Positions 48-63,606 of a stretch of 64,000 nucleotides of DNA are shown one piece after another. The notes beneath the pieces were generated by a model. That model ran no database searches. It was not told the DNA's origin and saw nothing but the letters and a program-made list of their open reading frames with translations. Position 1 is the first letter of the stretch, and each line of letters starts with the position of its first letter. Origin of the DNA: Norana najaformis (Eukaryota; Annelida; Clitellata; Crassiclitellata; Hormogastridae). The translations under genes and the position numbers were made by a program. Where the stretch lies: positions 20,450,762 through 20,514,761 of the forward strand of contig OZ029927.1 in assembly GCA_964023275.1 (NCBI GenBank). Direction: 5' to 3'.

Positions 48-2924
48 AAGAAAAATTGGATACTATCACCAAAAAAATCGTTGATCCGGCACAAACGTTG
101 TCATCGACTTCAGCAGATTTCAAGTCTCCTCCTTCCCTTTCTGTTCACGCAACTACCAAATCGCATCGTTCATTATCGTCATCTACTATAACTAGAACTA
201 CTATTCCCAGTGCTGCTCCCACTTCTCTTACAACTACTTCCACTCGCCCGTCTACTATCACTACTATGACCACCACCACTACAAATCTCGCTCCCATTCC
301 CACTACTACAACCACCACGGCTACTACTAACCCTAAACCTCGCAAGACGACTTTAGCCATTGCCACGACTCGTAATTCACCAAACAATTTGTCTGATGTT
401 CAAACAACTGGTTTCGCGCAAGAGATGCCATCGTCAACAGGTATTTTGATGAATATAAAATTACTTACGCTTTTCTTTTTTGTTGCCATTGCTATTAATT
501 ATAAACCGAGGAACTAATTCCCAGTATAGAAGATCGTGGCAAAAAATTTCTATCTATCACCAAATGAAGCTCTGCAGTATTGCTGGTCATTTTGATAAAA
601 GTACAACTACACATACCTCACAGCAACACTTCTGAAATGTTTCTATCGAAGAATGTGAACAGATGTATCCTATGCAATTATCAATTCTTCTTCGAGCTGT
701 GCAAATCGTTGGCAAAGGTTATATTCGACATTGTTTGATTGTTTTTGTTAAGTTTATGCAAAGGTCAAATGATCACCCATTCATTTGATTCGACTCCAAG
801 GTGAATCGAAATAACAATGAACACTTTTCTGCTCGGACATTCTTTTCTTCCTTCCATTTCTGTCAATCACTTTACTTTGACTGCAAAGCTCGGTCCAGTA
901 GATCGAGAAGTTGCAAATTGATTTTGTTTGGAAGTAACCTTGTGCATTACGATAACTGCGCCATAAAAGTATCCGGATTAAATTATAATAGATTGTGTCG
1001 TATAGTTTATCTGGTAATCAGAGAATACATAAGGAGCTATATTAATGCTATCACATTGTCATTCAGCGTTACGTTTCGCTCGCATTATATAACCATTGTA
1101 ATGTAATGAAATCGTGTTCATGTTAATGTAATGAAATCGTGATCATGTTATGATCATTATATGATCACGTTACAATAATTTAATCAGCTTCTTCAGTTTG
1201 TTAGTGTCTCGTGTTGTTGAGCTGCAAAGTACGTAGTCCTTTGAACTGCTATACAAAAGAAGGTTTGTAGATGTATGATATGTGTTTGACTTTTGTATCG
1301 AGTTGTATTGAATTTTATTCATGTCATGTTGTATTGCCGTATTATATGGTGTTGCATTATATTGTTGCTTATTATATAGTAATGTATTGCTTCGTGTTAA
1401 GTTGAAATGTTTTGTATAGTATTGTATTGTATTTTATTATGGTGTTTTACAAAGCATTGCTTAATATTGTTTTGTATTGTTTTGTATTGTTTTATATTGT
1501 ATTGCAGAACAACACATTATGCCATATTAACTCGCACTACAATAAGATACACCCCGCACTGCACTACACTACAATCGGCTACGTTGCATTATACTTTCTG
1601 CTCTGCACAGCATTACAAAGGACGTGTTTCAATTGTTTTTGTAGGACTATTCAAGTCGTTCCAAATAAAAGAAATTCTCCTTATCGTTTTGTTATTCGAT
1701 GTGATTCTTTTCATTGTCGTTGCCGTAATAGTGGTCCTCCGAAAGCGCAGATAGTAAGTAGTTACTATTGTTGGAATTCGCATTTTACCTATATGTTTAT
1801 AGAATTTAAACTGTTATTGAATTGGAAACAGTGGTACTTGTTATGGCCAAATCTTACTTACTTAATAGTTAGTCCTGCCTATGCAGTTCTGCACATAAGT
1901 AACGCTGGTTCCCCACTGTTCTGTTAATACTGTTGCAAAGTTTTTTCTTCACTGTTCTATTGTAACCGTTGTAAAGTTTTTTTTACCTGAGTTCAGGGTT
2001 GGTTGCAAGCCCACCGCAGAATCCACCTCCTTTATCTTGTCTTGGGACAGACTGAAACTCCCCGTCGAAGTCAGTAACTTGATTGAGCATTCGGCCTATA
2101 ACTGATTAGCCTAGAAACTAAAATTAATTTGCCGCAATTTTTTGCCAATCTGATAAATGCTCAAAAACTGTTACTGAACAGTTATTGTCTGCTTACACGT
2201 CAAACGAGGGCAAGGGGCACTTAAAGAATTAACAATTTGCTACTTATTTGCTTTGAAAAAGAAGCAGTTTTTTAATTTTAATTAAATTTTATTAAATTTT
2301 AGTTTAATTGTCATATCAAATGAAACGAAAGCGAATGTGTAAAAATAAAACTAACAATATTAACGATTCAAGTTGCATGATTTTCTAACGACACAAATAA
2401 CCCTCTCTCGACCACTTCAACGCTTCCCTCAATGTGGGTCTTGTGCCAACAGTGGAAAGAAATTTCTGCATTTCTCACGACCTGCTGTGACTTTACTAGT
2501 CATGGTTTTATGTAGCGCTAGAGAGAAAGAAGAATCGACCTTGAAGAAGACTAAGCAAGAAAGTGATCCGGCCTCTTCTGCATACGGAACAGTGCTTCCT
2601 CACAAAGGACCGCCAGATGGTACTGTTCCGCCTAGTAACACCATCTACGCCGAGGTGGAAATGACCCAACGGCCAACGCCTTCCAACAATACCATCTACG
2701 CCAGTGTTCAACCCTCTGGCGAAGCGGTTGACATGGGCAAAAACGTCGTCTACGCCGAACTTGACTTTCTTCAGAAAGTCAAGCAAAATTCAAAGAGTGC
2801 TGCAAAAATAGCCGCCTGTCTCGATCCTATTTATTCCACGCCCTACAAGCCACCCACCTCAAACTGCAACACAGTGTATGCCGAACCCTTCAAAACAGAT
2901 AAAACGCCAACTGTTCATAAATAA
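48..2924 (+). CDS. Gene 1 (5'-truncated by window): mucin stalk-TM-ITIM tail of CTLD receptor
   Basis: These are the last three exons of the receptor: stalk 48-440, transmembrane 1621-1753 and cytoplasmic 2516-2924. Their phases are 1, 1 and 2, and together they encode about 311 residues in frame. The stalk (about 130 aa) is very rich in Thr, Ser and Pro, as expected of an O-glycosylated mucin-like spacer. The TM exon encodes one hydrophobic helix (around IKEILLIVLLFDVILFIV) followed by the stop-transfer sequence RKRR. It is the only copy with an Asp inside the helix. The tail carries SAYGTV, NTIYAEV, NTIYASV, NVVYAEL and NTVYAEP, which fit ITIM ([SIVL]xYxx[VIL]) or ITSM (TxYxx[VI]) patterns. 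The tail is shorter than in gene 2 because of a stop at 2922-2924. Exons for the signal peptide and lectin domains would lie before the window. Exon ends were chosen from GT/AG sites conserved across the paralogues. Signalling function is inferred from motifs only. Confidence 0.78.
1290..1510 (+). repeat. TATTG/TGTAT-rich tract upstream of the TM exon
   Basis: A pentanucleotide-like tract (TTGTATTGTATT family) lies in the intron before the TM exon. Shorter versions are at 12940-13030, 23360-23455, 35340-35420 and 47695-47770. Gene 1 has the longest. In RNA these give UGUAU-rich sequence, a type bound by some splicing regulators. Confidence 0.5.
2516..2924 (+). CDS. Gene 1 cytoplasmic exon with five tyrosine motifs
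   Basis: The exon starts at the AG of a TTTATGTAG acceptor. It enters in phase 2, so the TA left by the TM exon plus C makes Tyr (YAREKEE). The tyrosines sit in SAYGTV, NTIYAEV, NTIYASV, NVVYAEL and NTVYAEP, with a further IYSTPY pair. The first four are spaced about 18-24 residues apart, which is too far for an ITAM but typical of serial ITIM/ITSM sites that recruit SH2 phosphatases or adaptors. The stop TAA overlaps an AATAAA hexamer. Confidence 0.75.
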
Positions 2925-4941: not shown

Positions 4942-5245
4942 CTACATGACATGTTTGGCAACGTTAATAATATGTTTTGGCAATGTTGAGTTGAGCCACT
5001 GCCAACGATACGTCTTATTATAGTCGTTGATTCGATATGCATCCGTCCAAACGTACTGGTTTCTGATTGGATTGGATGGGCCATCCAAATACTGACGTAC
5101 AATTTGATTATTTTCCTCGTCTTTAATGATGATTAAATTAGAATAAGGACCCTTGCATCGTTTTCGTGTGTTATCAAAGGATGCAGTTAACGTTCGATTG
5201 TTTGTGGTATTGTATTGCACATCAAAGCATCCAGTATACGGATAA
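4942..5245 (-). pseudogene. Inverted relic of a CTLD exon (CTLD1a type)
   Basis: Read on the minus strand, an open frame contains GCFDVQYN, SFDNTRKRCKG, SNLIIIKDEENN, WTDAYR and WQWLNSTLPK. This follows the CTLD1a pattern of genes 4 and 6 ([37 protein letters not shown]). Just after LPK the bases match the paralogous donor region except that the GGTAATAAT donor has become CATATTATT. I see no partner lectin, stalk or tail exon on this strand, so it is most likely a lone, diverged and inverted exon relic beside an AT-rich junction. Confidence 0.6.
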
Positions 5246-7377: not shown

Positions 7378-10300
7378 ATGGAACAACTGTGGTTGCGGTC
7401 GCTACTTGTAGCCTTTCTTTCGGGTGAATTAATACATTTATCTGAAGTTCTTATTTTAAAAGCGTTAATAAAAATCAATACTTATACAATGCAAGTACTG
7501 AACTTATCCTTTGGATGAACTGCAATGCTCCATGAAACATTTGAAGCCGCCGTCAGTTGTGAACAGAAGATGAACAACTGTTATAAATGGTTCCTTTATG
7601 TCATTTAACTAAAAATATATCGTTATGTTTTTATATCCCTCTAGACCTGGCAGTAATATAGCAAGGGCTAAAGCGAGTGGGACATTCATAGCACAGACTT
7701 TAGATTGTGTGTATGACTTTGAATCAGGAAGAATAATTGTGTCCCCTCTGAAAAAGTTAACTTTGATAGAAAATGCCAGTTTTGCAATACAGAATTGCGC
7801 AAAAAGACGCCTAACGTTACGATGATTTGTGATTTATGTTTTATGTCATATTATCTTTCGTTCGTGCAGGGCTGTTGCTATCATTGGAAGTGGTGCAGTG
7901 CCGGAACACACCTAAAGGAACATATAACATATCTTTATGTTACAACAATAGCTCTGGAAAGACTTGCTTCACGACATTTACTCTAAACAATAATCACTCA
8001 GTGCGTAAGAATTTCACAGCAGCCAATGACTGGTGCAAAACCTATGTTCCCGGATCTTCTTTAATCATCATCAGTAGCATAGAAGACCTAAGAACTGTCG
8101 AGGATTTCGTAGGAAGACAAATATTGGCGAATGAGACAATTCTTACGGACGCACAAAAGCCCTCGGAAATGAAAAGCTTTGAAAGGTCATGGGTAAATGG
8201 CCAGCAAAACATACCAAAAGGTAATAATAGCGAATTTGTTTAGTTGAGTTTACGAAGTGATATGTAATGTAATGTAATCGAAAATTTATAAAGCGCCTCT
8301 TCGAGATAGACTCATTAGAGGCGCTCCCGGCCCGACAACCCGGAAGCACTGGAAAATAAGAATGTCTTCAAGCGCTTGCGGAAAAGAGGGGAGAGAGACT
8401 AAGGAGTTCAAGGCGTAGATCATTAGGAAGCCCATTCCAAAAATCGGGACCAACCACAGCAAAACTTCTGCCCTGGGCCGTAGCTGATCGGACCGATGGG
8501 ACAAGCAAGTCACCCCGTACCGCCGAAAGAAGTAGCCTACGGCCTGGAATGGAGGAGGCCAAAACACAGAGCTCCCTAAAATAAAATCGAGCGCAACCTA
8601 AGAGGCAATTACGTACAAGATCCAGGATTTTGAATTTTATATGCTCCCGGATATAGGCAGCCAGTGAAGCTCCTCCGAAATGTAATCAGAGATGTGGCCA
8701 AACTTAGGGATACCTTCGATCATACGAGCAGCAGCGTGTAAGACAGATTGTAATTGCGAGATGCAGGAGGGACTCAAGCCAGCAAAGACAGCATCGCCAT
8801 AGTCAATCCAGGACCAGATAAATACATGGGCTAGAATGGTACAGCCTGGGTCGTGAGAGATTGGCATAGTGCGCAGTTGACGCAGATGGTAGAAACACGT
8901 TCGACAGACATTATTCACACGCTCCTTCAAAGTAAGTTCCTGAACCAAAATTACTCCTAGGTCACGGACTGAGGAAGAGAAGGAGATATCAGGAAAAGCC
9001 TAAGTAATCTGGCCAGATCAATGTTTTCTGATTGTTTTTGTGCAATTAGGCGCTACACTTGGTGATACAGACCGGGAATGTGGTTATCCCGATGATTCTC
9101 CTGACAAACAATGCATCTACATTATCCCGAAATGCAGCAGAAGTAATCATGGACACATGTGTGATACACAGGATGACCGCAAATGGTTGGCTTGCAACTG
9201 CAACAACAATTACGCAGTTGTCTGCCAAACAGGTTTGTTCTACGGAATCGTCGTATCTTACTATTTACTTTTTCTGACTAAAACCAGTCTCAAGTTTACG
9301 GTATGGTTTTGGGAGTTCCAATATATCAAAGTTTCGCCCAGACCCAAATTTTATGTGCCAAAATGTACCTATGTACAGAAATAATGTAAAGTCGATGTAT
9401 GCATGCATTTATTTATGTCAGTTAGTATATATAGGTGTCTATGCTGATGACACCCAACTATTCATCTCTTTCTCTCCAAACTGCTTCAATGAGTCTATAG
9501 ATCATCTTCTGTGCGTGGTTAAACAAATCTCCTCTTGGATGACATCTAATCTCTTATGCTTGAACCCATCTAAAACTGAATTCATACTTATAAGCCTACG
9601 TGACCAGCTCAAGAAAATTCCTGATCCCTCTATCTCCCTCAGCCTAGACTCTGCCTCCATCCACACCTTTAATACTAACCCTTCTGTCCGCAATTTAGGT
9701 GTTATTTTCGACCAGAACCTTACTTTTTCTGACCATATCACCCATCTTTACCCCTCCTGCTTTATGCATATCCGCGATCTTCGCAGAATCCGCCCTATGC
9801 TTGATTTCAAAACCGCATCTACCATTGCCACAGCCATAGTCCATGCAAAACTTGACTACTGCAATTCACTTTTCCTTAATATTGACACAACCCAGATTAA
9901 CCGCCTTCAAGCTATCCAGAATGCTCTCGCTCGTGCTGTCACCAAAACCCCCAAACACCATCACATCACCCCTGTTCTCAAATCACTGCACTGGCTTAAA
10001 ATACCAGAACGAATCGAGTACAAAGTCCTATCACTTACCTACAACACACTTCAATCTTCCAAACCTTCCTATTTTCGTCAGTTATTTACAATACAACCGC
10101 TTCGCTCAACCCGCTCTTCTTCTGCTCTAACACTTCTCCGCCCTCCAGTCACCTCATCCTTAATATTTGGTAATCGCTCCATAGCCATAGCTGCCCCACT
10201 ACTCTGGAATAAACTCCCCCCAGAACTGCGACAGTTTTCTGACCCATCATACAAACTCACCGATGCTCCACCGCTTGCAATTTCTGCTTCGGTCTTTCAT

Positions 10301-13300
10301 TCAAAACTGAAAACATTCCTCTTCCACAGATCGTATCCTGACACCCCTTCTTCCTGTTCTCTCTCTCTTTCCTCTCCAACCCCAACATCACCCACCGTGT
10401 ATCTGCCACGCTGTCTCTCTGCCTGACTCTTGGATCTTGACCTGGAACCGAACCCTTTTGCCTATCGATGTTGTTTTGACTGAGCGCCTGTGAATAAGCT
10501 GATCCCCGCGGCGCGGCTTTCGTTGGGCGTTGTAGAAATCTTGGAATTATGATTACGATTATGCATGCATCTACGTGTGTATGTACGTATGTACGGATGT
10601 ACGTATGTATGTTTGTATGCATGTACGTATGCATGTATGTACGTATGTATGCATGTACGTGTGTATGTTTGCATGCATGTACGTATGTATGTATGTTTGT
10701 ATGCATGTACGTAAGTATCTGGTTATTTGTATAGCGTAGTTTAAGAGCTTTAAAAGGCGCCTAATTACTTAAGATACTGGGTCATCTGATGTGTTGGTAA
10801 ACGCCTATCAATAAAAAATCGAAACCTTTCAACGTCCAGCTGTATGTGCAAGTATAATAGTCTGGAAATTTATATTACATTTTAATGCGTGTTTTGATAT
10901 TCGTTTGAGCTTTTAAGTTAGCACCCGGTCTGAAGAAGTCTTAATATCTTCTATATTATGCCAAGTTAATATCGATGAAGCATTTTAATAAGACACGTTG
11001 AGCGTTTGGTTATAAAGTTTTGAACGTATTGTAACAGGTACAGTAATTTAATATTATCCCGTATTAGCAAAGGTCCTCAAACGAAGTGTGTCCTAAGACC
11101 AACGCTAGAGCGGTAGCAGATGGAAACTGTCTGGTGTTAAAAAACTTTCATTGTCACATGCCGCAAGATTGTTTTGTCTAATTACTTTTAAAGACCACAA
11201 TAATGTCTGGCTATAGGCTACAACAACTGTGCTTTGCTACCACACAGTTGGTATCAAAGAACGATTCAGTTGCATTAGTATGTAGTATTTCATAACAGTG
11301 AAGGCGTGGTCTTTAAGTAAGACTGAATGAACTTTTGGCTGGAGCGCAAACACAACAACCGCAGTCACGTAACTGTAGTCTCAAGGCAATGAATTGTTTC
11401 TTTCACGATGAGCCGCTCAGCGCTCGTGTAAGATAATATATGTACATATATATGTTACCTTAACTTTTCTCGTGGGAAAAGTCGACCGACAGGTCTGCTA
11501 TGAATAGTTTCATGGGCATTTGTCTTAACTAAATATTCCACTAAGCTGTCCATGGATGGTTACACTTGAAGTTCTAAATATTTCCCAGCAGAAGAAAAAT
11601 TGGAAACATCGACTGCAGCAGCTGTCTCTCTTTTGTTCATTCAGCTACCACATCCCGTCGTTTATCGTCGTCATTATCTTCTATGACTAGTACTACCACA
11701 ACCCGTACAACTACCAAGACTACTAAAACATCTACCACTTCCAAGGCTACTACAACCCCTACCACTACCAAGGCTACTACAACCTCTACCACTACCAAGA
11801 CTACTACAACCCCTACCACTACCGAGGCTAATACAACCCCTAAAACTAACAAGACTACTACAACCCCTACCACTACCGAGGCTACTACAACCCTTACCAC
11901 TACCAAGGCTACTACAACCCCTACCACTACCGAGGCTACTACAACCCTTACCACTACCAAGGCTACTACAACCCCTACCACTACCAAGACTACTACAACC
12001 CCTACCACTGCCGAGGCTACTACAACCCCTAAAACTAACAAGACTACTACAACCCCTACCACTACCGAGGCTACTACAACCCTTACCACTACCAAGGCTA
12101 CTACAACCCTTACCACTACCGAGGCTACTACAACCCCTACCACTACCGAGGCTACTACAACCCTCACCACTACCAAGGCTACTAGAATCCCTACCACTAC
12201 CAAGGCTACTACAACCCCTACCACTACCGAGGCTACTAGAACCCCTACAACTAAAAAGACGACTTTGACCACATTTACGACTCGCAAATCACCAGTAAAT
12301 TCGCCTGAGCTTCAAACAACTTGTATCGCCCAAGAGATTCCTTCGTCAACAGGTATTTTGATGAATATTAAAATTACTTGCGCTTTTCTCGTCGCTTTTG
12401 CTATTATTTATAAACCCGTGAATTAATTTCCAATATATAATATCGTGGCAATAAGTTATATATATCATCGAAAACTGCGAATCGCTTTGACAAGACTACA
12501 ATTCTACATTCCTCAGGACTACGCTTCTTCAATGTTTCCATTAAGGCGTGTGAACATTTTTATCCTGTGCAATAAACAATTCTTCATTGAGCTATGTAAA
12601 TAATTGACCAAGGCTATTTATGCCATAGTTGAATGGTTGTTGTTTAGTTTATGCGTAGGTCAAATGATCCTCCGTTTATTTGATTCGACTCCTTGGTGAA
12701 TTCAATTAACAACGCTCTTTTCTCTTACAACATTCTTCCTCTGCATTACCCTCCATCACTTTATTTTCACTGCAGGCCTCTGACCAACCAATTGTGAATC
12801 TTCAATGTGATTTTGCTTAGAAGCAACCATCATTCGGCATTATGATAACGGCACTATAAAAGTTTACGGATTAGATTAGAAACGATTAACAGTCGTATTT
12901 TATCTGGAAATGAGAAAATTCTTAGGGAGCTATGTAAATGCCATCACATTATGTTATTGTATTGTATATTATTTTACTACAGTGCAATGCAAGGCATTGC
13001 ACTGTATTGTATTGCTATATATCTTATTTTAGAACATCACAATATATGCCATACAACACACCCGTTACATTAAGCTACACGCGCTCTGCACTAGACAACA
13101 TGTGGTCAGCTACGTTGCCTTATATATTCCGCTGCACTGTTCTGCACTGGTATAACAAAGGACGTGTTTCAAATGTTTTTGTAGGACTGATCGACTTGTT
13201 CCCCATAAAAGAAACTCTCATAATCGTTTTGCTATTCGTCGCAGTTGCTTTCATTGTCGTAGCTGTAATAGTTGTCTTCCGAAAGCGCAAATAGTAAGTA

Positions 13301-20477: not shown

Positions 20478-23400
20478 ATGGATCAACTGTGGTTACGGTT
20501 GCTACTTGTAGCCTTTGTTGCTGGTAAATGAATACATTTTATCTTATGCCGGCATCATTCGTACATGGACAACAATATGATGTGACGCTATATTCATAAA
20601 GACAGCGTTGGTAAAAGGCCTTACAAGATAAAATCCTTGAAAAGTAGAGTTGAGGATGTACGGTCGATAAAGTAGGCATGTCATAGCCCAAAGACCCGTT
20701 TTATCTTCTGTCCGTCTGCGAAGTTCTTATTTAAAAAAAAACATTAATAAAAATTAATACTTATACTCTGCAAGTATTGAACTTCACCTTAGAATGTAGA
20801 CCTTCTGTAATGCTACACGAAACATTTTATGCCCGTATCAGTAGTAAACAGAAGACGTGCAACTATTACAGATGTTTCATTCCGCCATTTAACTGAAACT
20901 GGTTTTATATCCCTCTAGGCCTAATAGTAGCGTTTATTTAGCGACGGTTAGAGCGACTGGGACAATCATACGTACAGGCTTCACATTGTGTGTATGACTT
21001 TGAATCAGGAAGAATAATTGTACTCCGACGAAAGAGTTAACTTTGATGGAAAATGGATGTTTTTGATTCGACTTATTATATAGTTCTTCTAGGGCTAGGT
21101 CTTGCATTACAGAATTGTGCAAAAAGAGGCTCAACGGTACGATTATTTGTGATTTATATGTTATGTCATAATATCTTTCGGTCGTGCAGGGCTGTTATGT
21201 ATGTTTATGTGCATGTACGTAAGTATCTGGCTATTTGTATAGCGTAGTTTAGGAGCTAATTACTTAAGATAGTGGGTCATCTGAAGTATTGATAAATGCC
21301 TATCGATAAAAATTCGAAACATTTCCACGTCCAGTTGTATGTGCAAGTATCAGAATCTGAAAATTAACCGTACACTTTAATGCGTTTTTTTATATTCGTT
21401 TGAGCTCCTACTGTAAGTTAGCATCTCTCTGAAGAAGTCTCAATATCTTCTATATTATGCCAAGTTAATATCAATGAAGCATTTTAATAAGACACGGTGA
21501 GCGTTTGGTTATAAAGTTTTTAATGTATTATAACCGTAATTTAATAGTATCCTATTTAATAAGACAGTGTGAGAGTTTGGTTATAAAGTTTTGAACATAT
21601 TGTAACCGCTAATTTAATAGCATCCCGTATTAACAATAGACCACAAACGAAGTGTGTTCTAAGGGCCAACGCTAGAGTGATAAGTGGTAGCAGATAGAAA
21701 CTGGCTGGTGTAAAAAAGCACAGGCCGCGAGATAGTTTTGTCTAATTACTTTAAATACCATAATATTGTCTGGCAATTGGCTACAGCAACTGTGTTTGCT
21801 ACTACACAATTGGCATCGAAAAACGATTCGGTTGCATTAGTATGTAGTATTTTCATACATTAATTTTAACAGTGAAAGCGTGGTCTTTAAGTCAGACTCA
21901 ATTAACTTTTGGCAGCAGCGCAAACACAACAACAACAGTCACGTGACTGTAGTCTCAAGGCAATGAATTGTTTCTTTCACGATGAATCGCTCAGCGCTCG
22001 TGTAAGATAATATATATATATATATATATATATTACCTTAAATTTTCTCGTGGGAAAAGTCTACCGACAGATCTGATATGAATAGTTTCATGCGCATTTG
22101 TCTTCACTGAATATTCCTCTAAACTGTGCATGGATGGTAACATTTGAAGTTTTAACTATTTTCCAGCAGAAGGAAAATCGGATACATCGACTTCAGCAGC
22201 TGTCTCCCTTTCTGTTCATTCAACTACCACATCAAGTCGTTTATCGCCGTCATCATCTACCATGACTAGTACTACTACAACACCTACTACTACCAAGACT
22301 ACCACAACCCGTACAACTACCAAGACTACTAAAAAACCTACCACTACCAAGGCTACTATAACCCCTATAACTCACAAGACTACCACAACCCCTACAACTA
22401 CCAAGACTACCACAACCCCTACAACTACCAAGACTACCACAACCCTTACAACTACCAAGACTACCACAACCCCTACAACTACCAAGACCACCACAACCCC
22501 TATAACTACCAAGACTACTGCAACACCTACAACTACCAGGACTACCAGAACCCGTAAAACTAATAGAGCCCCTGCCACTACCAAGACTACCACAACCCCT
22601 ACAACTACCAAGACTACTAGAACCACTATAACTACCAAGACTACTAGAACCCTTACAACTCACAAGAAGACTTTGACCACATATACGACTAGCGAGTCAC
22701 AAGTAAACTCCTCTGAGGTTCAAACAACTGGGAAAGAGATGCCGTCGTCAACAGGTATTTTGATGAATATAAAATTACTTGCGCTTTTCTCGTCCCTTTT
22801 GTTAGTATTTATAAACTGGTGAATTAATTTCCAATGCATAATATCGTGGCAATAGGTTTATATCTATCATCGAAAGACGCGCCGTAGTATTGCTGGTAGC
22901 TTCGACAAAACTACAATTCCACATTATTCAGGACCACTCTTCGGAAATGTTTCCATTAAGGCGTGTGAACATTTGTATCCTGTGCAATAAACAATTCTTC
23001 ATTGAGCTATGCAAACCACTGACCAAGGCTATTGATGCCATTGTTGGATTCTTGTTGTTTAGTTTATGCATAGGTCAAATGACCCTCCGTTTATTCGATT
23101 CGACTCCTTGGTGAATTGAAATAACAATGAAAACTTTTCTGTTACAATATTCTACCTCTCCTATGCCGTCCATCACTTTATTTTTGACTGCATAGCTCGG
23201 TCCAACCAATTGTGAATTTGCAATCTGATTTTCCTTAGATGCAACCATCGTTGGACATTATGGTAACGTCACTATAAAAGTTTCCAGATAAAATTGGAAT
23301 AGATTAACAGTCGTATTTCATCTGGTAATAAAAGAATGCTTAAGAAGTTATACAAATGCCATCACATTATGTCATTGTATTGTATGTTATTTTGTTACAT

Positions 23401-42474: not shown

Positions 42475-43104
42475 TACGAACAGTTTATGAATTCTTCATC
42501 TTTGTAAAGAGTTCTCGCTTGTCCAGAATCGTTCAGCTTCATTTAGCCGTTTGAAGATCCAACAATGGAACAATTGTTGTTGCGGTTGCTGCTTGTTGCC
42601 TTTTATGCAGGCAAATGAATACGTTTCTCTGAAGTTCTTATTTGTGAAAAACATTAATAAAAATCAATGCTCCTACTCTGCAAGTATTGAACTTCTCCTT
42701 AGGATGTAGGCCTACAGTAATGCTACATGAAGCATTTGAAGCCGCCGTCAGTGGTAAACAGAAGATGTGCAAGTATTATAGATGGTTCATTCTGCCATTC
42801 AACTGAAACATACTACTATGGTTTATATCTCCTTAAGCCTAGCACTTATATAACGAAGCATAGAGCAACTGAGATATTTATGCGCGAAGACTTTACATTG
42901 TGTGTATGACTTTCAATCCAGGAAGAAATATTGTATACTTGCCGAAAACGTCAACTTTGATGGAAAATGCCAGTTTTTGATTTGACTTTCTATCTAAGTT
43001 TTCTAGGGCTGGGTTTTGAAAATAGGGAAATGGGCAAAAAGAGGCCTGAGGGTACGATAATTTGGAATTTATATGCTACTTAATAATATTTTTTGTTCAT
43101 GCAT

Positions 43105-43455
43105 GGTCATGGCTGACATTAGATGTGGTGCTGTCCGAGAACATACCTAAAGGAACATATAACATATCTTTATGTTACGACAAAAGCTCTGGAGAGACTT
43201 GCTTCACGACATTTTTTGACAACAATAGTCGCCCAGTGCGTAAGAATTTCACAGCTGCCAAGGACTGGTGTAAAACCAATGTCTCCAACTCCTCTTTAAT
43301 CATCATCAATAGCATAGAAGACCAACGAACTGTCGAGAGTTTTATAGTAAGACAAGCATTGATGAATGAGACAATTCCTACGGACGCACGAAAACTCTCG
43401 GCAAGAGAACGCCTTGAATGGTCATGGGTAAATGGTCACCGAATAATACCAAAAG
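43105..43455 (+). pseudogene. Gene 5 CTLD1a exon with destroyed acceptor
   Basis: The coding part is open and well conserved ([22 protein letters not shown]), with three extra codons relative to genes 4 and 6. The acceptor that reads TTCATGCAG in genes 4 and 6 reads TTCATGCAT here, and I found no in-phase substitute AG nearby. The matching donor after exon 1 is GC (42611-42612). Confidence 0.65.
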
Positions 43456-44504
43456 GTAATAATAACGAATTTTTTTAGTTGAGCACCTCACTAACTTCAT
43501 GTGGATTTCCACAATTTTGCGTCATTACAATTTACTTCTTGAATGCATTTATTCTGACGTATGTGTATTTAATAATTTCTTTTTGGAAAATACTGAGTAG
43601 CTTTAGTTCCACTTGGCGGTCGATTTTTTGCAAAATGTTGTGAAATTAAAACTTTGTTTGAATCCTCTCCATTCCTAATTTCACAGTTTAAATAGGCGAT
43701 ATGAACCACCGAAGTCAAAAGCTGCTTCTTAAATTATTGTCGTTCGACCAACATACTTTGCTAATAATCACTTAGTGTCTTTCAGGGTTCAACAGAGGAC
43801 AAGTACAGAATCATGATGCAGCTGCCGTGTTATTAGAGGCTGGGCAACGAGCGGTCTACGGTGTTGGTGACTTTGAGATCGTGCGCCATTATATTTGCGA
43901 ATATTCAGGTAAATGAATATGAAGCCAAACATAACATTGTTTAACTAATTGTATGTATTAGAACTGGTAGTCGCAGATATAAGCTAATATTATTAGTAAT
44001 AACTATTATTAACTCCGATACTTGATTATCTTATTTTAAAATTAGATAAAAATATTAACATCGCGCCAGTATATTATAAATTCACAAGAAAAGCTTCGTT
44101 TGCGAAGTGAGAAAAGAATAAGTGAAAAGTGCAGATTATATATCATTAGGCGTAAGTCGCTAAGTGTACACTCATGTGAAAGGAACTGGAGCTTCCGCTG
44201 AACCTTTCAAATATCTTAAAATCGCTTAAAAGTGTGTTGCAAGTCTACGTGCAATGCTTGTAAGATGAACTATTATGCATTTCGGATGCGTATTCGTGAT
44301 TTAAAGTGGTTAAAGTGTGACAATGTGTTGGCCTGCACATTATTGCTAAGAGTTTATGTTTGGGTGCATGTTTTCTGTAATCCTCGAATTCCATCCCTGC
44401 AAATGAAAGAATCCAAGCTAAAGATCCCTGAACGGGCGGCAAATAATTTAATTGGGTATTAATGTTCGTACTTGAACAGAGATTAGATATAAGTTCTATT
44501 GTAG

Positions 44505-44729
44505 ACTCGAAACGAAACTTCACCTTCAAACAAAACAACAGGTATTACGTCTAAAATGAGAATACTGCCACTTGGTATGATGCCCGAAATGAATGCTTAC
44601 GACTGGGAGGAGACTTGGCTTCTCTTACGGATCTCGGAAGGATTAATGCAAGTTCATGGCTGAGAGATAACCATCTTAGATATTATTCGATAGGACTTTA
44701 TTGAAATGAGTGGATTTGGAGCAGCACTG
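44505..44729 (+). pseudogene. Gene 5 CTLD2a exon with two in-frame stops
   Basis: Splice sites are present but the frame carries TAA right after RYYV and TGA after IGLY. The surrounding residues ([22 protein letters not shown]) are kept, so the lesions look recent. The exon is phase 1 on both sides and 225 nt long, so skipping it keeps the frame. Confidence 0.68.
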
Positions 44730-45737
44730 GTACGCTATCTCTCCACAATCTATTACTAGAGGATACATGGTGGCACGTAATAGACGTATACGTGCCCCTT
44801 GATTTGCTGATTGATGCATTTGTAAACATGCGATTGAATTCGTTTCTATAAGAAGTTTCTTTAATTTTTCGTCGTTTTAGCTTAAGTTTATCTCTCTAGT
44901 CTTGCTTTCTCGGCTTCAACAACTGGAATCTATTATCAGTCCGTAAATCGGCTTAAGAAGGAAGTTGGAGACGTAGACCTACGCATTTCTAAACTTCCAA
45001 CTGTTAAAAGATAGGCTAATATTCTGCCAAAATGTTTACTCCTAACATTATATAATAATTTCATTGATAATCAAATAGAAACATAATCAAGTGTGAACAT
45101 AGAACCGTACTTGTTAGCGTTATGGTTTTCAGTAGAACAGCAAATCTCTGCAATCACTCATAAGGTGTAAGCCACTATGGTAACATCACTGTATCATATA
45201 ATTTAATAATGGTTACCAAAATTCTCTCCATCTTACAGTTAACGGCTTACTACTTCTAGTTTACTGTCAGTACTGCATGGAAGAGAAGACAACAAAATTG
45301 CGAACAGATTAAAACTACAACCTCAAACAAAAGCAAAAAAACATTATGAAATAATAGATGATTGAAAACGATGTTCAAAGACCCTTTTCTGATTGTTTTT
45401 GTAAAATTAGGCGCTGCAATCAATTATGCAAATTGGGCAGATGGTTATCCCCTTGATTCTGCCGACAAACAATGTATCTGCCTTAGCCGAAACTGCAGCA
45501 GAAGTAACAATGGACACGTGTGTGAAACACTGGATAAAAGGAAATGGTGGGCTTGCAACTGCAACAACAGTTACCCAGTTGTCTGCCAAACAGGTTTGTT
45601 CTACGGAATCACTGTATCTTAATATTTACCTTTTTTCACTAAAACTACGGTATGGTTTTGAGAGTTCCAATTTATCAAAGTTTCGCCCAGACCCAAATTT
45701 TATGTGACAAAATGTATATATGTACAGAAACAATGTA

Positions 45738-46055
45738 AAGTCTGTGTGTACGCATGTATGCATGTGTGTAAGCATATATAGGTGTGTATGCATGCATATA
45801 CATCTGCACGTTCGCATGTGTGTATGAATGTAGTATGTATGTTTGTATGTATGTTTGTATGTATGTATGCACGTATGTTCGTATGTATGTATGTAGTAGG
45901 TATGCATTTGCGCATGCAGGTATGAATGTACATATGTATGTACGTATGTATGTAGGAATGTATGTTTTTATGTACGTACGACTTGTACGCATGTTGGATG
46001 TATGTTTGTGTGTAGGTACGTGAGTTTGTATGCATACGTGCATGTACGTGAGTAT
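45738..46055. repeat. TATG/TACG array in gene 5 intron
   Basis: The longest array of this family in the window. The His-Thr-Tyr-rich openings on the minus strand are not genes. Confidence 0.85.
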
Positions 46056-48732
46056 CAGGCTATTTGCATAGGGATGTTTAAGAGCTTAACAAGGCGCCTA
46101 ATTAGTTGAAATACTAGATCATCTGATGTGTTTGCAAATTCCATTCGATAAATAGATCGAAACCCTCCCACGTCCATCTGTATGCGTAAGCGTAACAGTC
46201 TGAAAATTTATGTTAGGACTATTTATGCTAGAGCGGTAGCAGACAGAAGATGTGTGGTGTTGAAAAACTTTCACTGTCACATGCCGCAAGATTTTTTCAT
46301 CTAATTACTTTAAAAGACCATAATATTGTCTGGCTATAGGCTACAGCAACAGAACTGTGCTTTGCTATCACACAGTTGGTATCGAAGAACGATTCAGTTG
46401 CATTAGTATGTAGTATTTTCGTACATTAATTTTAACAGTGAAAGCGTGGTCTTTAAGTAAGACTGAATGAACTTTAGGCTGCAGCGCAAACACAACAACC
46501 GCAGTCATGTGACTGTAGTCTGAATGAACTGATTCTTTCACGATGAGCCTTTCAGCGCTCGTGTAAGATAATTTAATTATTATATCACCATAAGTTTTCT
46601 CGTGGCAAAAGTCGACCGACAGGTCTGCTCTGAATAGTTTCATGGGCATTTATCATTTCAATAATCCGGTAAACCTTCCATGGATGGTAGCACTTTGTTT
46701 CTTGCAGAAAAAAAATTGGATGCATCGACTTTAGCAGTTGTCACGCATTCTGTTCATTCAACTACCACATCCCGTCTTTTATCGTCGCCATCATCTAATG
46801 TGACTAGTACTACTACAACCCGTACAACTACCAAGACTATCAGAACCCCTACAACTACCAAGACTACTACAACTCCTACAACTTCAAAGACAACGATAAG
46901 CCCTATAACTGACAAGACTGCTTCAGCCACTTCAACGACTAGCAAATCACCAATAAATTCGTCTGAGATCCAAAGAACTGGTATCGAGCAGCAGCCGTCA
47001 TCCTCAGAAGGTATTGGATTATTATCGAAATTGCCTACGCTTTTCTCGTCGCATTTTTTATTATTTATTAACAGGGCTACTAATTCCCAATATCAAAGAT
47101 CCTGGCAATAAGACAATAAATATTATCCAAAGCAGAGCCGCATTACTGTTGGTCCCCGATAAAACTACAGTTGCACATACAAGAGGACCACACTTCGGAA
47201 ATGTTTCTATCGAGGCGTATAAAGAAGCGTATGCGGTGCAATTTGCAATTCTTCGTCGAGCTGTGCAAGTCGTTGGCGAAGGATTTTTATGCCGTTGTTG
47301 GTTTGCTTTCGTTAAGTTTATGTGTAGGTCAAATGATCCTCCATTCATTTGATTCCACTCGAAGGTGAATTAAACTAACAATTAACACTCATCTGTTCCA
47401 ACATTCTTCTTCTACTTTACCCTATAATTACAGCCTCATTTTGACCGTTCAACTAATAAAAGAAAACTTTTCTCTTACAACATTCTTCCTTTTCATTACT
47501 GTCTATCACTTTACCATAACTGCAAGGTTCTGTCCAATAACTTGAATTTTCAATGTGATTTTGCTTAGAAGCAACCATCGTTGCGCATTGTGATAACGGA
47601 TCTATAAAAGTTTCCGGATTAAATCAGAATAGATCAACAGTCGTATTTTATCTGGTAATGAGAAAATACTTAAGGATCTATATAAATGCCATCATAGTGT
47701 GTTATTGTACGGTATATTATTTTATTACAGTGTCATGCATGGAGTTGCATTGTATTGTTCTATATTGCACTTTTGAACATCACACAATTCCATATTAACA
47801 CACACACACATTACATTAAGCTACACCTGCTCTGCACTAAACAACATGTGGTCGGCTACGTTGCATTATACTTTCTGTTGGAATGCTATGCGCTGCATTA
47901 CAAAGGATGTGTTTCAATATTTTTCCAGGACTGTTCGACTTGTTCACCATAAAAGAAATTTTCATAATCGTTTTGTTATTCGTCGCAGTTGTTTTCATTG
48001 TCGTAGCCGTATTACTGGTCTTCCGAAAGCGCAAATGGTAAGTAGTTACAATCGCTGAAATTCGTATTTTGCGTAAATTTTTCTAAGATTTAAACGGTTA
48101 TTGAATTCAAAACAGTGGTCCTTGTTCAGTATTTGCCTGGGACAAATATTACTCACTTAATTCTTAGTCCTTCCTGTGCTGTTCTGAACATCGACAACCT
48201 CAGATTTTCCGCTGTGCTGTTCTTACTGTAGTAAAGCTTTTTTGCCTGCGTAGATTTCAATCCAAACACATAATTCGCCTCCTTTAACCTCGTTAGGTAT
48301 AGGCTGAAGCTCTCCGTTGTAGCCAGTAACTTGATTCAGCATGCAGCTTGTAACGCAAATTAGCCTAGAAGCTAAAATTCTCTTGTTGCAATTTTTTACC
48401 AATCGGATAAATGCTCTAAATTCTTACTTATCAGTCATTGTTTAAACGTTGAACGAGGGAAAAGACCACTGAAAGAATTAGAGTTTTATGTTTCTACAAA
48501 TCAACAAAATTCCCTATTAGCTAACTTATCGAATCACATGCAGCGAAGGCGAATGTCTACACACAAAACTAGTAATATAACGAGTTGTATGATTATGAAC
48601 CACATCATTATCCGTAACTAGAATATACTCGCTTCCCCCAGTGAGGGTCCACGTTCTTTGGGCCACAGTGGAAAGAAATATTTATGCCCTTCTCACGACC
48701 TGCTGCCACTCTGCAATTCATATTTTATGTAG

Positions 48733-48979
48733 TGCTAGAGAGAATGAAGAATCGTCCTTGAAGAAGACTAATCAACAAACTGATCCGGTCTCATCTGTTT
48801 ACGAAACCCTGGTTCCTCACAATATACTGTCAGATGGTACTGTACCGCCCGATAACACTATCTACGCCGAGTTGGAACTGACTCAATGGTCCACGCCTTC
48901 CAACAATACCATCTACGCCAACGTTCAGCCCACAGGCGAGCCGGTGTACTGGGCAAAAGCGTCGTCTACGCCGATCTAG
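48733..48979 (+). CDS. Gene 5 cytoplasmic exon, same truncation as gene 4
   Basis: The exon enters in phase 2 after TG from the TM exon, so the junction codon is Cys (CARENEESS). It contains SVYETL, NTIYAEL and NTIYANV and ends in EPVYWAKASSTPI at TAG 48977-48979. The stop and frameshift position match gene 4. Distal tail homology persists untranslated to 49397. Confidence 0.62.
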
Positions 48980-57866: not shown

Positions 57867-60800
57867 ATGGAGCAACTGTTGTTGCGGTTGCTACTTGTTG
57901 CTTTTCTTGCGGGTAAATGAATACATTTCTTTGAAGTTCTTATTTGTAAAAACATTTTAGTAAATCAATACTTATACTATGCAAGTTTTGAACTTCTACT
58001 TAGGATGTAGGCCTACAGTATTCCTACATGTGGCATTTAAAGCCGCCGTCAGTAGTAAACAAAAGATCTGCAAGTATTATAGATGGATCATTGTGCCATT
58101 CAACTGAAACAAAACTATGATTTATATCCCTCTAGGCCCAACACTGATATAAAGACGGTTACAGCGACTGAGATATTTATGCGCATAGACTTTACAATGT
58201 GTGTATGATTTTCATTCCAGGAAGAAAAATTGTATCCCCGCCGAAAAAGTTAACTTTAATGGAAAATAATAGTTTTGATTCGACTTATTTTTCAGGTTTT
58301 CTCTGGCTGAGTTTTGAAAATAACGAAGTGCGCAAAAAGAGGCTAACGGGTATGATAATTTGTGTTTTATATGTTATGTGATAATATTTTTTGTTCATGC
58401 AGGGTCATGGCTGTCATTGGATGAGGTGCAGTCGCAGAACATACCTAAAGGAACATATAACATATCTTTATGTTACAACGAAAGCTCTGGAAAGACTTGC
58501 TTTACGACATTTTTTGACAACAATACTCGCCCAGTGCGTAAGAATTTTACAGTTGCCAAGGACTGGTGTAAAACCAATGTCCCCAACTCCTCTTTAATCA
58601 TCATCAATAGCATAGAAGACCAACGAACTGTCGATGGTTTTATCGGAAGACAAGCATTGGTGAATGAGAAAATCCTTACGGACGCACGAAAGCTCTCGGC
58701 AAGACAATGGTCATGGGCAAATGGCCACCAAAACATGCCAAATGGTAATAATAGGGAATTTTTTTATCTGAGCACATCGCTTACTTCATGTGGATTTCCA
58801 AAATTTGGAGTCATTAAAATTTACTTCTTGAATGCATTTATACTAAAGTATGAGTAAATAATGATTTCTATTTGCAAAATACTGAGTATCTTTAGTTCCA
58901 ATTGGCGGTCAATTTTGCAAAATGTTGTGAAAATAAAACTTTGTTTAAATCCTTTCCATTCCTAATTTCACAGTTTAGATAGGCGATATGAACCACCGAT
59001 GTCAAAAACTGCTTCTTAAATTATTGTCGGTCAGCCAACATACTTTGCTAACAGTCACTTAGTGTCTTTCAGGGTTCAACAAAGGACAAGTACAGAATCA
59101 TGATGCAGCTGCCGTGTTATTGGAGCCTGGACAACGAGCGGTCTACGGTGTTGGTGACTTTGACCTCGCGCGCCATTATATTTGCGAATATTCAGGTAAA
59201 TGAACTTGAAGCCAAACATAACTTATTGTTTATCTTATTGTATGTATCACAACTGGTAGTCGCAGATATAAGCTAATATTATTAGTAGTAACTAACACTA
59301 ACTGCCCTATATGATTATGTCATAAATAAAATAGCTAAATCTATTTATATCGCGCGAGTATATTATAAATTCACAAGAAAAGCTTCGTTTGCAGATAGAG
59401 AAAAGAATAAGTGAAGAGTGCACACACATCATTAGGCGTAAGTCACTAGGTATACGTGCATGTGAAAGTAACTTCCGTTGAATCTTTCAATTATCTTAAA
59501 ATCGCTCAAAAGTGTGTTGCAAAGTCTACGTACAATGCTTGTACGACGAGCTATTATGCATTTCGGATGCGAACTCGTGATTTAAAGTCATAGGCCAAGT
59601 TAGGTTAAAGTGTGCCAATGTGTTAGTCTGCACTTTATTCCGCCGTGTTTATGTTGCGTGCACGTTCTGTATAATCCTCGAAATCCATCCCTGCAAATGA
59701 AAGAATCAAAGCGAAAGATCTTTAATCGCGCGGACGGCATTAATTTAATTGGATATTAATTTTCGTACAAGAACAGAGATTAGCTATAAGTTCTATTGTA
59801 GACTCGAAACGAAACTTCAGCTTCCAACAAAACAACAGGTATTACGTCTTAAGTGAAAGTACTGCCACTTGGTATGATGCCCGAAATGAATGCTTACGAT
59901 TGGGAGGAGACTTGGCTTCTCATATGGATCTCGGAAGGATTAATGGAAGCTTATGGCCTAAAGATTACGACGGATATTTTTGGATAGGACTTTATCGAAA
60001 TGAGTGGAATTGGAGCAGCAATGGTAAGATATATTCCCACAATCTATTGCTAGAGGATACATGGTGGCACGTAAACTTCCAACTGGTAACAGATATAGGC
60101 TAATTTCTGCCAAAATGTTTACTCAATATTACATAATAATTTCATTGACATTCGAATAGGAAAATAATCAATTGTGAACATACAACCGTACTTGTTGTGT
60201 TAGCATTATGGTTTTCAGTAAAACACAAAATCTCTGCAAATACTCATAAGGTGTAAGCCAGTGAGGTAATACAACTGAAATCATATTATTTTAAAATGCG
60301 TACCAGAATTCTCTCCATCTTACAGTTAACGGCTGACTACTTCTAGTTTTCTGTCAGTACTGACTGGAAGAGAAGACAACAAAATTGCGAACAGATTAAA
60401 ACTATGAGGTCAGACAAAAACAAAAAACATTATGAAAAAATATATGATTGAAAACGATCTTCAAAGACCCGTTTCTGATTGTTTTTGTGCAATTAGGCGC
60501 TGCAATCAATTATACAAATTGGGCAGATGGTTATCCCGATGATTCTGCCGACAAGCAATGTATCTGCCTTAGCCGAAACTGCAGCAGAAGTAACAGTGGA
60601 CACTTATGTGAAACACAGGATAAGAGCAAATGGTGGGCTTGCAACTGCAACAACAATTACCTGGTTGTCTGCCAAACAGGTTTGTTCTACGGAATCACTG
60701 TATCTTACTCTTTACATTTACTGACTAAAACCAAGTCTTGAGTCTACGGTATGGTTTTGGGAGTTCCAATTTATCAAAGTTTCGCCCAGACCCGAATTTT

Positions 60801-63606
60801 ATGTGCCAAAATGTGTGTATGTAGAGAAACAATGTAAAGTCTGTGTGTATGCATCTATAGCATGTCTCTAAGTATATATAATTGTGTATGCATGCATATA
60901 TGTATATACGTTCGTATATATGTATGTATGTAGTATGTGTGTATGTATGTTTGTATGTATGTACGTATGTATGTATGTATGTATTATGTATGTGAATATG
61001 TACATATGTATGTACGTGTGTATGTTTGTGTGTATGTACGACTTGTACGTATGTATCCATGTATGTTTGTATGTATGTACGTGAATTTGTAAGTATCTGG
61101 TTTTTGTATAGCATTTTTGGGAACTTAACAATTCGCCTAATTACTTAAGATACTGGCACATCTGATATGTTGATAATTGCCTTTCGATAAATAGATCGAA
61201 ACCTTCCCATGTACAGCTGTATGTGTAAGTGTAATGGTCTGGAAATTATGGTAGGACTATTTTGCTAGAGCAGTAGCAGACAGAAACTGCGTGGTGTTGA
61301 AGCAACTTTCATTGTCACATAACGCAAGATAGTTTTGTCTAATTATTTTAAAAGACCATAACATTGTCTGTCTATAGGCTACAGCAATTGTGCTTTGCTA
61401 CTACACAATTGGTATCGAAGAACGATTCAGTTGCATTATTCCTTTTTTCATTTACTTTGTAATTCTTCTTTTACTGAGGACTCAGTGTCGCCCTCCAACA
61501 AAGGTGTAGTATGTTTTCCCTCTTTGAAGCGCCAGGGCCTTGACCCTAGTGCCCCATCTAATTACCGTCCCATTTCTAACTTGGCCTTTCTCTCGAAGCT
61601 CCTTGAAAGGTCCGTCTCTCATCAGCTATCTCGCTACCTCGACACTAACACTCTTATGCCTCCAATTCAGTCGGGGTTCAGGAAATATCAATCCACCGAA
61701 TCGCATATGACTCGTCTTCTTGCTGACGTATTTGGCCCTTTTCGATGTAAGTGCTGCTTTTGATACCGTTGATCACTCCATCCTATTGGAGCGTTTGGAG
61801 ATTTCATTTGGCATCACTTGTTCTGCCCTCATCTGGTTTCAATCATTTCTGCTCATCTGGTTTCAGTCATTCCTGTCAGACCGCCTTCGATCTGTTGTTT
61901 TTGGGCCCTCAAGGTCCCTCTGGGTTACCCGTCTTCTCACCCAATGGTTCCGTCCTAGCTCCTGTCTATATTTCATGTACCTCTGACCTAGCTCGGACCC
62001 TCCTCCCACTGAGTGTTGCCGTCCTTCAGTATGCAGGCGACACCCAGTTTATGCCCATGGTCCGGCGGAGGTGGCCCCAGCCTTTTCCTCGATGCCACTT
62101 ATGTTCTTGACCTATGGATGTCCTCCAATCGCCTCCGTTTGAACTGTAATAAGACCCAGTTCACCTGGCTTGGCGGCTGCTTGCAGCATTGCAAGACTGA
62201 TCTCTCCTACTTACGCCAGAGATTTCCGGATACCTTCTTCTCTACTACGGTCCGGGATCTCGGGGTTTATGTTGGACCAGGAGCTTAACCTGTCGGCTCA
62301 TGCTAACAGCGTCTCTCGCTCTTGTTTTGACCATCTTCTTCAGCTCCGTACCATTCGCCGTACTCTTTCCTTCCACGCTATCTCCACTCTGGTCCATGCC
62401 CTCATTTGCACTAGGGTTGACTTTGGTAACGCCAACTTTAACGGCCTACCGATAGCCAACATTGCAAAGCTGCAGTCTCTGCTTTACTCCTCTGCTCGTC
62501 TCATTGGGGCATTCCAAAATATGGCCACATCTCGTCTTATATTCGTGACACTCTTCACTGGCTCCCCGTCCAGCAGCGTGTCCACTTTAAGATCCTCTCC
62601 CTCATGCGCAGTTGTGTTGTTGGCTCTGCTCCCCTTTACCTCATTGACTTCTGCACTTTGGTCTCCTCGTTGCCGGGGCGTAGCACCCTTCACTCGGCCA
62701 ATCAAGATCTCCTGTTTGTCCCGCGAATGCGCACCGCTACTGCCCAGTCCAGAAGCTTCGCCTACGTTGGTCCCACTTGCTGGAATCGTCTCCCTTGAGA
62801 ATTGTGGCTTGAGCTCCTTTTTCTTCCCTCTCAGCGTTCCGCAGGCGCCTAAAGACTGTACTGTTTAACAGTGATTTTACTTGTTCCGGTCGGAAGCACC
62901 TCTGTTGAGTTTGTCTTCTAACAGGCGCTATATAAACCTCGAATTACAATTGCAGTTACAGTTAGTATGTAGTATTTTCATACATTAATTTTTACAGTGA
63001 AAACGTGATAATTGTAATTGTAAAGGTAATTGTAAATGTAATTTGAGATTTATAAGTGGTCTTTATGTAAGACTATAATAAATTTTGACTGCAGCGCAAA
63101 CATAACTACCGCAGTCACGTGAATTTAGACTCAAGGCAATGCATTGTTTCTTTTACGGTGAGCCGCTCAGAACTCGTGTAAGATAATATGTTTTCTCATG
63201 AGAAAATATAAGTTTTCAAAAGGCGGCCGACAGGTCTTCTATGAATAGTTTCATGAGCATTTCTCATTTGAATATTCCGGTAAACTGTCCATGGATGGTA
63301 ATACTTGAAGTTTTAACTATTTTCCAGCAGACGAAAAATCGGATACATCGACATCAGCAGCTGCCTCCCTTTCTGTTCAATCAACTACCACAACCCGTCG
63401 TTTATCGTCGTCATCATCTACTATGATTAATACTACTACAACCCCTACAACTACCAAGACTACTAAAACCTTTACAACTACCAAGACTGCTGTAACTCCT
63501 ATAACTGACAAGACTGCTTCAACCACTTTTACGACTTGCACATCACCAATAAATTCGTCTGAGGTTCAAAGAACTGGTATTGCGCAGGAGGCGTTATCCT
63601 CAAAAG
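57867..63606 (+). CDS. Gene 6 (3'-truncated by window): two-CTLD receptor, signal peptide through stalk
   Basis: The exons are 57867-57912 ([15 protein letters not shown]), CTLD1a 58403-58744, CTLD1b 59073-59195, CTLD2a 59802-60023, CTLD2b 60497-60679 and stalk 63328-63606. All introns are phase 1 with GT/AG ends, and the frame is open throughout (398 codons plus 1 nt). CTLD1 shows five N-glycosylation sequons (NIS, NES, NNT, NFT, NSS), [22 protein letters not shown] and a C-terminal HYICEYS. CTLD2 shows [34 protein letters not shown] and VVCQT. No EPN, QPD or WND calcium triad is present. The TM and tail exons should start roughly 0.8 kb after the stalk, beyond the window. The intron before the stalk is enlarged by a LINE insertion (about 61438-62960). 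This is the best-preserved ectodomain with gene 4. Confidence 0.8.
60845..61095. repeat. TATG/TACG array in gene 6 intron
   Basis: Same intronic position as in genes 2, 4 and 5. It precedes the LINE insertion by about 350 bp. Confidence 0.85.
61438..62960 (+). mobile_element. Degenerate LINE RT fragment in gene 6 intron
   Basis: Several frames on the + strand read [19 protein letters not shown], then [46 protein letters not shown] and [15 protein letters not shown]. These cover RT motifs from the fingers to the thumb, broken by frameshifts and with the catalytic YADD replaced by YAGD. The element is inserted into a sequence continuous in genes 2-5 (GATTCAGTTGCATTAGTATG), so it post-dates the unit duplications. 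It ends with AGGCGCTATATAAACCTCG and an ATTACAATTGCAGTTACAG tail. Confidence 0.78.

Follow-up and report, generated by a model that had tools for sequence, protein, structure and literature searches.

What kind of gene occupies a stretch of annelid DNA in which exons for lectin-like heads, a stalk, a membrane helix and a tyrosine-bearing tail recur along one strand? The stretch in question, referred to here as the window, comprises 64,000 nucleotides of Norana najaformis contig OZ029927.1 (C15; C15:20450762-20514761). A sequence-only reading had described it as six head-to-tail copies of a surface receptor with two C-type lectin-like domains (CTLDs), a stalk, one transmembrane (TM) helix and a tail carrying immunoreceptor tyrosine-based inhibitory and switch motifs (ITIM and ITSM), with a role in innate immunity or self-recognition as a hypothesis. 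The analysis shows that the window is a slice of a single larger array, all on the same strand, and that the receptor family encoded by the array is real; its general kind is known, and its arrangement is unusual. Taken together, the data suggest tandemly amplified, type I, single-pass lectin receptors of inhibitory type that evolve rapidly and perhaps serve immunity or self-recognition; we give this account about an even chance of being correct.

The genome comprises 608.4 Mb in 17 contigs, and the exons of every copy were mapped over 274 kb of C15. This mapping places 21 units (A, B and U1-U19) on one strand between C15:20,421,617 and ~20,680,075, spaced roughly 10-18 kb apart, with a tail present in 20 of the 21. 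When a full tail was used as the query against the genome, 32 matches were returned, all on the plus strand and all within C15 20.428-20.680 Mb. The same-strand repetition of signal peptide, two CTLDs, stalk, TM helix and tail therefore stands as first described, whereas the number of copies rises from six to 21. Within U17, a CTLD2b piece is inverted (203963-204073 in window coordinates, on C15) and the remainder of U17 lies on the plus strand.

The structure of the gene is clearest in U4, the fourth gene of the window. U4 has eight exons, spliced by hand and then checked by script, all with GT-AG ends; the junction between the TM and tail exons is in phase 2 and every other junction is in phase 1. 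Each CTLD is split over two exons (a and b). The product comprises a signal peptide, CTLD1, CTLD2, a Ser/Thr stalk, a single TM helix and a tyrosine-motif tail. Its length, earlier given as 530 amino acids, requires correction. A CTLD2a acceptor at 32258 was rejected, as the AG is present there in six of 16 exon-bearing copies compared with all 16 at 32270; stops also fall between the two positions in U8, U10 and U11. Moving the acceptor 12 nucleotides downstream therefore yields a product of 528 rather than ~530 residues. The order of a hydrophobic N-terminal exon, lectin exons, a single TM helix at approximately residues 425-446 and then the tail is that of a type I protein, which suggests type I membrane topology for the array receptors. 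The proposal of an eight-exon type I gene with a signal peptide is thus borne out in gene 4, with canonical splice sites and constant phases.

Ten of the 21 copies (A, U4, U6, U7, U8, U9, U10, U11, U12 and U16) are open from signal peptide to TM helix with good splice sites, over 440-521 codons. This count depends on exon boundaries: it was six of 21 with the first stalk boundaries, eight after boundary correction, and nine and then ten after hand placement, in U9 and U12, of a divergent first exon and stalk acceptor. The tails of these ten copies range from 82 to 220 residues, with the full length kept by U8 only; the remaining open tails of full or nearly full length (B, U2, U15, U18 and U19) sit in copies with broken or incomplete heads. 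Six units touch the window, and U4 (30354-36617) is the only one that is both complete and intact within it. U6 is open throughout its in-window part, with its TM exon (64416-64524) and tail (from 65216) beyond the window. U5 has all exons, but its CTLD2a contains two in-frame stops and two of its splice sites are altered; in U2 the CTLD1b and CTLD2a exons are missing and the stalk is frame-broken; no CTLD exon was found in U3 from signal peptide to stalk; and U1 has broken lectin exons, situated upstream of the window. The description of six copies sharing all parts accordingly holds for U4 and U6, the latter ending outside the window, and fails for U1, U2, U3 and U5. A reading of U2 as a working single-CTLD gene, in which CTLD1a is joined to CTLD2b in compatible phase, was rejected on account of the broken stalk frame, and U2 is not counted as intact.

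Does this chain of exons represent one gene? Evidence that it does comes from a second contig, C10, on which the interval 0.38-0.95 Mb (384000-945000) holds, on both strands, at least 22 of the 90 Lectin_C matches found genome-wide, counts that are lower bounds as 150 of 373 candidates were scored. One gene of this cluster, L032, contains CTLD1a, CTLD1b, CTLD2a, CTLD2b, TM and tail exons in array order. Those of its junctions that can be placed have the array phases, including phase 1 into and phase 2 out of the TM exon, and its tail carries TYYATV, TNYATV and HVYADLGF. The gene after it, L033, encodes both CTLDs; it also has an open Ser/Thr-rich stretch and a similar TM helix, its tail not being found in the stretch read; in a further C10 locus, L031, CTLD exons are present and no tail was seen within 10 kb. 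A chance join of separate genes was rejected, since a divergent and unlinked gene on C10 repeats both exon order and phases. This recurrence is strong evidence against an accidental reading across genes; the domain order originally assigned is supported.

A divergent gene with CTLD exons also adjoins the array on the minus strand of C15 (L010; window coordinates ~-38200 to -32400). Its TM helix resembles that of C10 (67%, E=2.5e-7), and its tail contains HYSFV and TQYAELGF. Between U1 and U2, the window holds an isolated, divergent CTLD exon on the minus strand (4945-5259; Lectin_C 22.8 bits, cut-off 22.6), which is perhaps a fragment of this sister subfamily adjoining the array.

The lectin-like nature of the heads is unequal between the two domains. 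In a Pfam scan, gene 4 matches Lectin_C with E=1.3e-12, the best stretch being CTLD2, and no other domain exceeds its cut-off; three further array ectodomains match Lectin_C with E values of 9e-13 to 9e-17, again as the sole domain reaching cut-off. The best solved relative of gene 4 by PDB sequence match is the mannose receptor (MRC1; E=2.5e-8), also on CTLD2. When CTLD1 is scanned alone, gene 4 and U9 give no Lectin_C match, and U16 stays below the cut-off of 22.6, with 22.3 bits over model positions 3-106 of 107. A profile of five array CTLD1s had no significant match among solved structures, the best being struthiocalcin-1 (E=0.08). The presence of Lectin_C in two stretches of whole proteins was set aside as proof of CTLD1, as CTLD1 alone is weak. 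The CTLD1 of a C10 gene, scanned alone, scores 33.4 bits, and hhalign matches the array CTLD1 profile to the C10 CTLD1s over the whole length (E 9.8e-8, probability 94%). Because of this alignment to a Lectin_C-positive domain, CTLD1 is best regarded as a strongly diverged C-type lectin-like domain. The domain search of spliced gene 4 thus returns a clear CTLD2 and a divergent CTLD1 that is tied to the family through its C10 relative.

Sugar-binding C-type lectins are defined by EPN/QPD-type and WND motifs, which bind calcium and sugar. Neither is found in CTLD2 of the ten intact array copies. The loop reads G[YH]P[DN]D in all ten, and the WND position reads W[WR][ATP]CNC in nine, U11 having an insertion; CTLD2 of the C10 gene is closer to the canonical pattern (QPND and WRD). 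The lack of the usual calcium and sugar residues in the array suggests that these heads bind proteins, or bind their ligand without calcium.

In an alignment of 19 tails (U13 and U14 left out), the four membrane-proximal tyrosines are retained in 17 of 19, 18 of 19, 19 of 19 and 14 of 14 aligned tails. Many copies match TxYxx[VL], a motif that we take to be an ITSM, at the second and third of these tyrosines. Most match SxYxx[VL] and VxYxxL at the first and fourth, and there conform to the ITIM consensus (I/V/L/S)xYxx(L/V), which is described as recruiting SHP-1/2 (PMC10008955). All ten intact copies carry three or four Yxx[LVI] motifs apiece; S, I, V, L or T stands at the -2 position from the tyrosine in two to four of those, and in each copy at least one, such as SxYxx[LV] or VxYxxL, matches the ITIM consensus. 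Full tails additionally contain YSTP and YAEP sites distal to the ITIM-like motifs. A one-nucleotide deletion common to U4, U5, U6, U7 and U10 terminates their tails early, and because of this deletion VxYxxL is not in the gene 4 frame. Of the serial SxYxxL/V, TxYxxV and VxYxxL motifs of the sequence-only reading, the last is therefore absent from gene 4. In the ten intact copies, the TM core contains no charged residue.

Selection was assessed in the ten head-intact copies with an MG codon model in which omega was either free or fixed at 1; nine tests were made in total, and the short- and long-tail sets include broken-head copies that the ten-copy tests exclude. In the ten copies, omega is 0.65 for the tail (p=0.015), 0.62 for the TM exon (p=0.05), 0.79 for CTLD1a (p=0.15), 0.87 for CTLD2 (p=0.36), 0.84 for the stalk (p=0.13) and 2.23 for CTLD1b (p=0.009). 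In six long tails, omega is 0.47 for the first 90 codons (2dlnL, twice the difference in log likelihood, is 17.2 versus omega=1) and 0.69 for the codons that follow (p=0.036). Pairwise counts agree, with CTLD1b highest and TM and tail lowest. An earlier codon test, ambiguous as to its fixed parameter, gave 2dlnL values of 9.8 for CTLD1b and 10.9 for the first 90 codons of the long tails, and below 2.6 for CTLD1a, CTLD2, stalk, TM and the 72-codon tail. As judged by these codon models, the membrane-proximal tail is constrained and most lectin exons fit neutrality. The elevated omega of CTLD1b is marginal in view of the nine tests and the evident gene conversion. Overall, the heads seem less restrained in their evolution than the tail, a pattern that receptors for recognition would be expected to show.

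The frames themselves are open more often than chance would allow. In a substitution-only simulation of the 694-codon frame of U8, stop-free survival under neutrality falls from 7.7% at 3% divergence to 0.9% at 5% and to 0 of 1500 at 10%, values somewhat too low for frames of 440-521 codons. Between intact copies, lectin exons differ by ~4 to 26% (pairs listed).

Heads and tails also differ in their genealogy. Trees were built from 14 shared copies, including the broken copies B, U1, U5 and U18 and omitting U13, U14, U19 and the exon-lacking copies. The lectin-exon tree and the TM-plus-tail tree reject each other (approximately unbiased test, p 7.9e-6 and 8.8e-8). The lectin exons of U8 are 95.7% identical to those of U7; over TM and tail, U8 shares 91.9% identity with U11 and 81.4% with U7, and sequence identity falls after CTLD2b. 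One head class is thus joined to short tails in U4-U7 and U10 and to longer tails in U8 and U11. As the genealogies of heads and tails differ, the two have been exchanged between copies.

These features can be assembled into a proposed mechanism. The two lectin-like heads, held on a Ser/Thr-rich stalk, would bind ligand. Binding would cluster the receptor, allowing a Src-type kinase to phosphorylate the membrane-proximal ITIM/ITSM-like tyrosines; SH2-domain phosphatases would then be recruited and cell activation damped. Unequal crossing-over and gene conversion would create, delete and re-pair heads and tails, and this re-pairing may be a route by which a recognition repertoire, immune or self/non-self, is renewed. 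The ligand, phosphorylation, phosphatase recruitment, inhibition, expression and cell type in this scheme are all projected from sequence, and on that footing an inhibitory function and a part in recognition are the likeliest interpretation. The immune or self-recognition role suggested at the outset draws indirect support from the constrained tail, the head/tail exchange, the turnover of copies and the marginal CTLD1b value, and is weakened by the number of broken copies.

Several results weigh against this account. Eleven of the 21 copies are broken, and the full 220-residue tail accompanies an intact head in one copy of ten. CTLD1a, CTLD2 and the stalk are indistinguishable from neutral, and tests based on trees are disturbed by gene conversion. 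As the omega of 0.47 comes from six copies of which five have a broken or incomplete head, part of the tail constraint may lie in the past; the five short-tail copies show none in the tail that they retain (pN/pS 1.12). When all ten tyrosine columns are pooled, they are no better kept than other residues (permutation p=0.29), and the TM helix of the broken copies U1 and U15 contains one Asp. Finally, a genome search with the C10 tail matched itself alone, so tail kinship between the clusters rests on motif, phase and TM helix.

The alternative that survives best accepts the same receptors and assigns the tail an activating or adaptor-docking function. ITSM-type motifs bind SAP-like adaptors, and YxxP motifs bind Crk/Nck-type SH2 domains; the second and third tyrosines and the distal sites YSTP and YAEP, beyond the ITIM-like motifs, could act in this way. 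YxxP is found in four of the ten head-intact copies (U8, U9, U11 and U16), and activating signaling through ITIM-bearing lectin receptors is described in a review (PMC10008955). Yet the distal tail is missing or truncated in nine of the ten head-intact copies and, where present, is less constrained than the proximal part (omega 0.69 versus 0.47), making this function somewhat improbable. Less probable again is that these are lectin receptors for adhesion or for environmental surfaces, contacting food, symbionts or mucus with no part in defense or self-recognition. Lectin arrays do serve non-immune tissues, and a Ser/Thr-rich stalk and N-glycosylation sequons in the heads would suit such contact; in our judgement, serial constrained ITIM-like motifs and head/tail exchange would be unusual for simple adhesion. 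That the array is largely dead, its gene-like look owed to recent duplication of one gene, would accommodate the broken copies and the lectin exons that fit omega=1, but it is very unlikely given ten copies open over hundreds of codons despite their lectin-exon divergence, the simulated loss of neutral frames and the low omega of the long tails.

How does the favored reading, of inhibitory-type lectin receptors, compare with known systems? ITIM control through lectin heads is best known from the type II receptors of the vertebrate natural killer (NK) complex. Vertebrate ITIM-bearing C-type lectin receptors are type II proteins with one CTLD and usually one ITIM, and their genes are clustered. 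By comparison, the array receptors, predicted to be type I, carry a pair of CTLDs and a Ser/Thr stalk, and their tails hold three or four Yxx[LVI] motifs; their exon order is that of neither a type II nor a single-CTLD protein. The likeness to CLEC4A/DCIR, CLEC12A/MICL, inhibitory Nkrp1 and Ly49 lies in the combination of a CTLD head with an ITIM consensus tail (PMC10008955). A Ciona CD94-like receptor is described as without carbohydrate-binding capability (PMC5465252). The Botryllus CD94-like receptor is type II, and the available text mentions neither two CTLDs nor ITIM arrays for Botryllus or Ciona. The Hydractinia Alr complex resembles the array in being a many-gene complex, with 41 members and V-set/I-set immunoglobulin (Ig) heads (PMC11999971). 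No Ig domain was matched by Pfam in the four array proteins scanned. Alr proteins are type I and have tyrosine-motif tails. The mannose receptor family (MRC1, MRC2 and PLA2R) shares multiple CTLDs with the array and supplies its best PDB sequence match; its members are type I and combine at least eight CTLDs with cysteine-rich and fibronectin-II domains. The array receptors differ in having two CTLDs only and an ITIM-like tail, and no cysteine-rich or fibronectin-II domain exceeds the Pfam cut-off in gene 4 or the three other ectodomains. In open-access literature, no type I two-CTLD ITIM receptor family was seen in the titles and abstract openings among the matches listed, a scope outside which most subscription papers fall.

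The features of the array within the window are collected in Table 1, and several other elements lie around them. At 8640-10423, a LINE-type (long interspersed nuclear element) remnant on the plus strand (RVT_1 E 9.6e-5, below its cut-off) and a retroelement-like open reading frame on the minus strand (by eye, no Pfam match) flank CTLD2b of U2, where CTLD1b and CTLD2a are missing. Retroelement-like open frames, again by eye, occur at 61362-62868 between CTLD2b and the stalk of U6; Pfam on 61711-61983 and 62143-62865 within them gave no match. Between U5 and U6, the plus strand contains a kinesin KIF9-like stretch at 54556-54909 (PDB sequence match E 3.3e-11). A perfect (TA)192 tract of 384 bases occupies 55417-55800, and a similar long TA run is found in L031 on C10.

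Table 1. Exons and units of the receptor array in the window (positions counted from its first nucleotide).
Feature	Position	Strand	Basis
U1 stalk exon, Ser/Thr-rich	48..440	+	open frame, homology, AG/GT ends
U1 TM exon, phase 1 in / 2 out, one Asp in helix	1645..1753	+	
U1 tail exon, 136 aa, tyrosine motifs	2516..2924	+	
U2 signal-peptide exon	7378..7423	+	
U2 CTLD1a exon	7870..8220	+	
U2 CTLD2b exon (CTLD1b, CTLD2a not found)	9050..9232	+	
U2 stalk exon, 27-nt Thr-rich repeats, frame-broken	11589..12352	+	
U2 TM exon	13185..13293	+	
U2 tail exon, full length, 226 aa	13978..14656	+	
U3 signal-peptide exon	20478..20523	+	
U3 stalk exon	22167..22754	+	
U3 TM exon	23599..23707	+	
U3 tail exon, 94 aa up to first stop	24403..24685	+	
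U4 signal-peptide exon	30354..30399	+	
U4 CTLD1a exon	30890..31231	+	
U4 CTLD1b exon	31559..31681	+	
U4 CTLD2a exon, revised acceptor	32270..32509	+	
U4 CTLD2b exon	33185..33367	+	
U4 stalk exon	34462..34758	+	
U4 TM exon	35574..35682	+	
U4 tail exon, short version: SVYETL, TIYAEL, TIYANV	36371..36617	+	
U5 pseudogene, eight exons (2 stops in CTLD2a, two altered splice sites)	42565..48979	+	
U6 signal peptide to stalk, intact; TM and short tail beyond window	57867..63606	+	

A broader interpretation can be offered tentatively, as possible rather than probable. The array may belong to an uncharacterised complex for self/non-self or immune recognition that uses C-type lectin-like rather than Ig heads, and whose type I ITIM receptors, with two CTLDs each, occupy at least two unlinked clusters. 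In such a complex, recombination would re-pair changing heads with conserved inhibitory tails of differing length, making it an invertebrate-style parallel of the NK and Alr complexes. If the type I, two-headed version is true, the solution of coupling a lectin to an inhibitory tail would have been reached here by another route. Heads and tails can be followed in this family as separately exchanged modules and, if the locus is polymorphic, it would be a directly testable candidate recognition locus.

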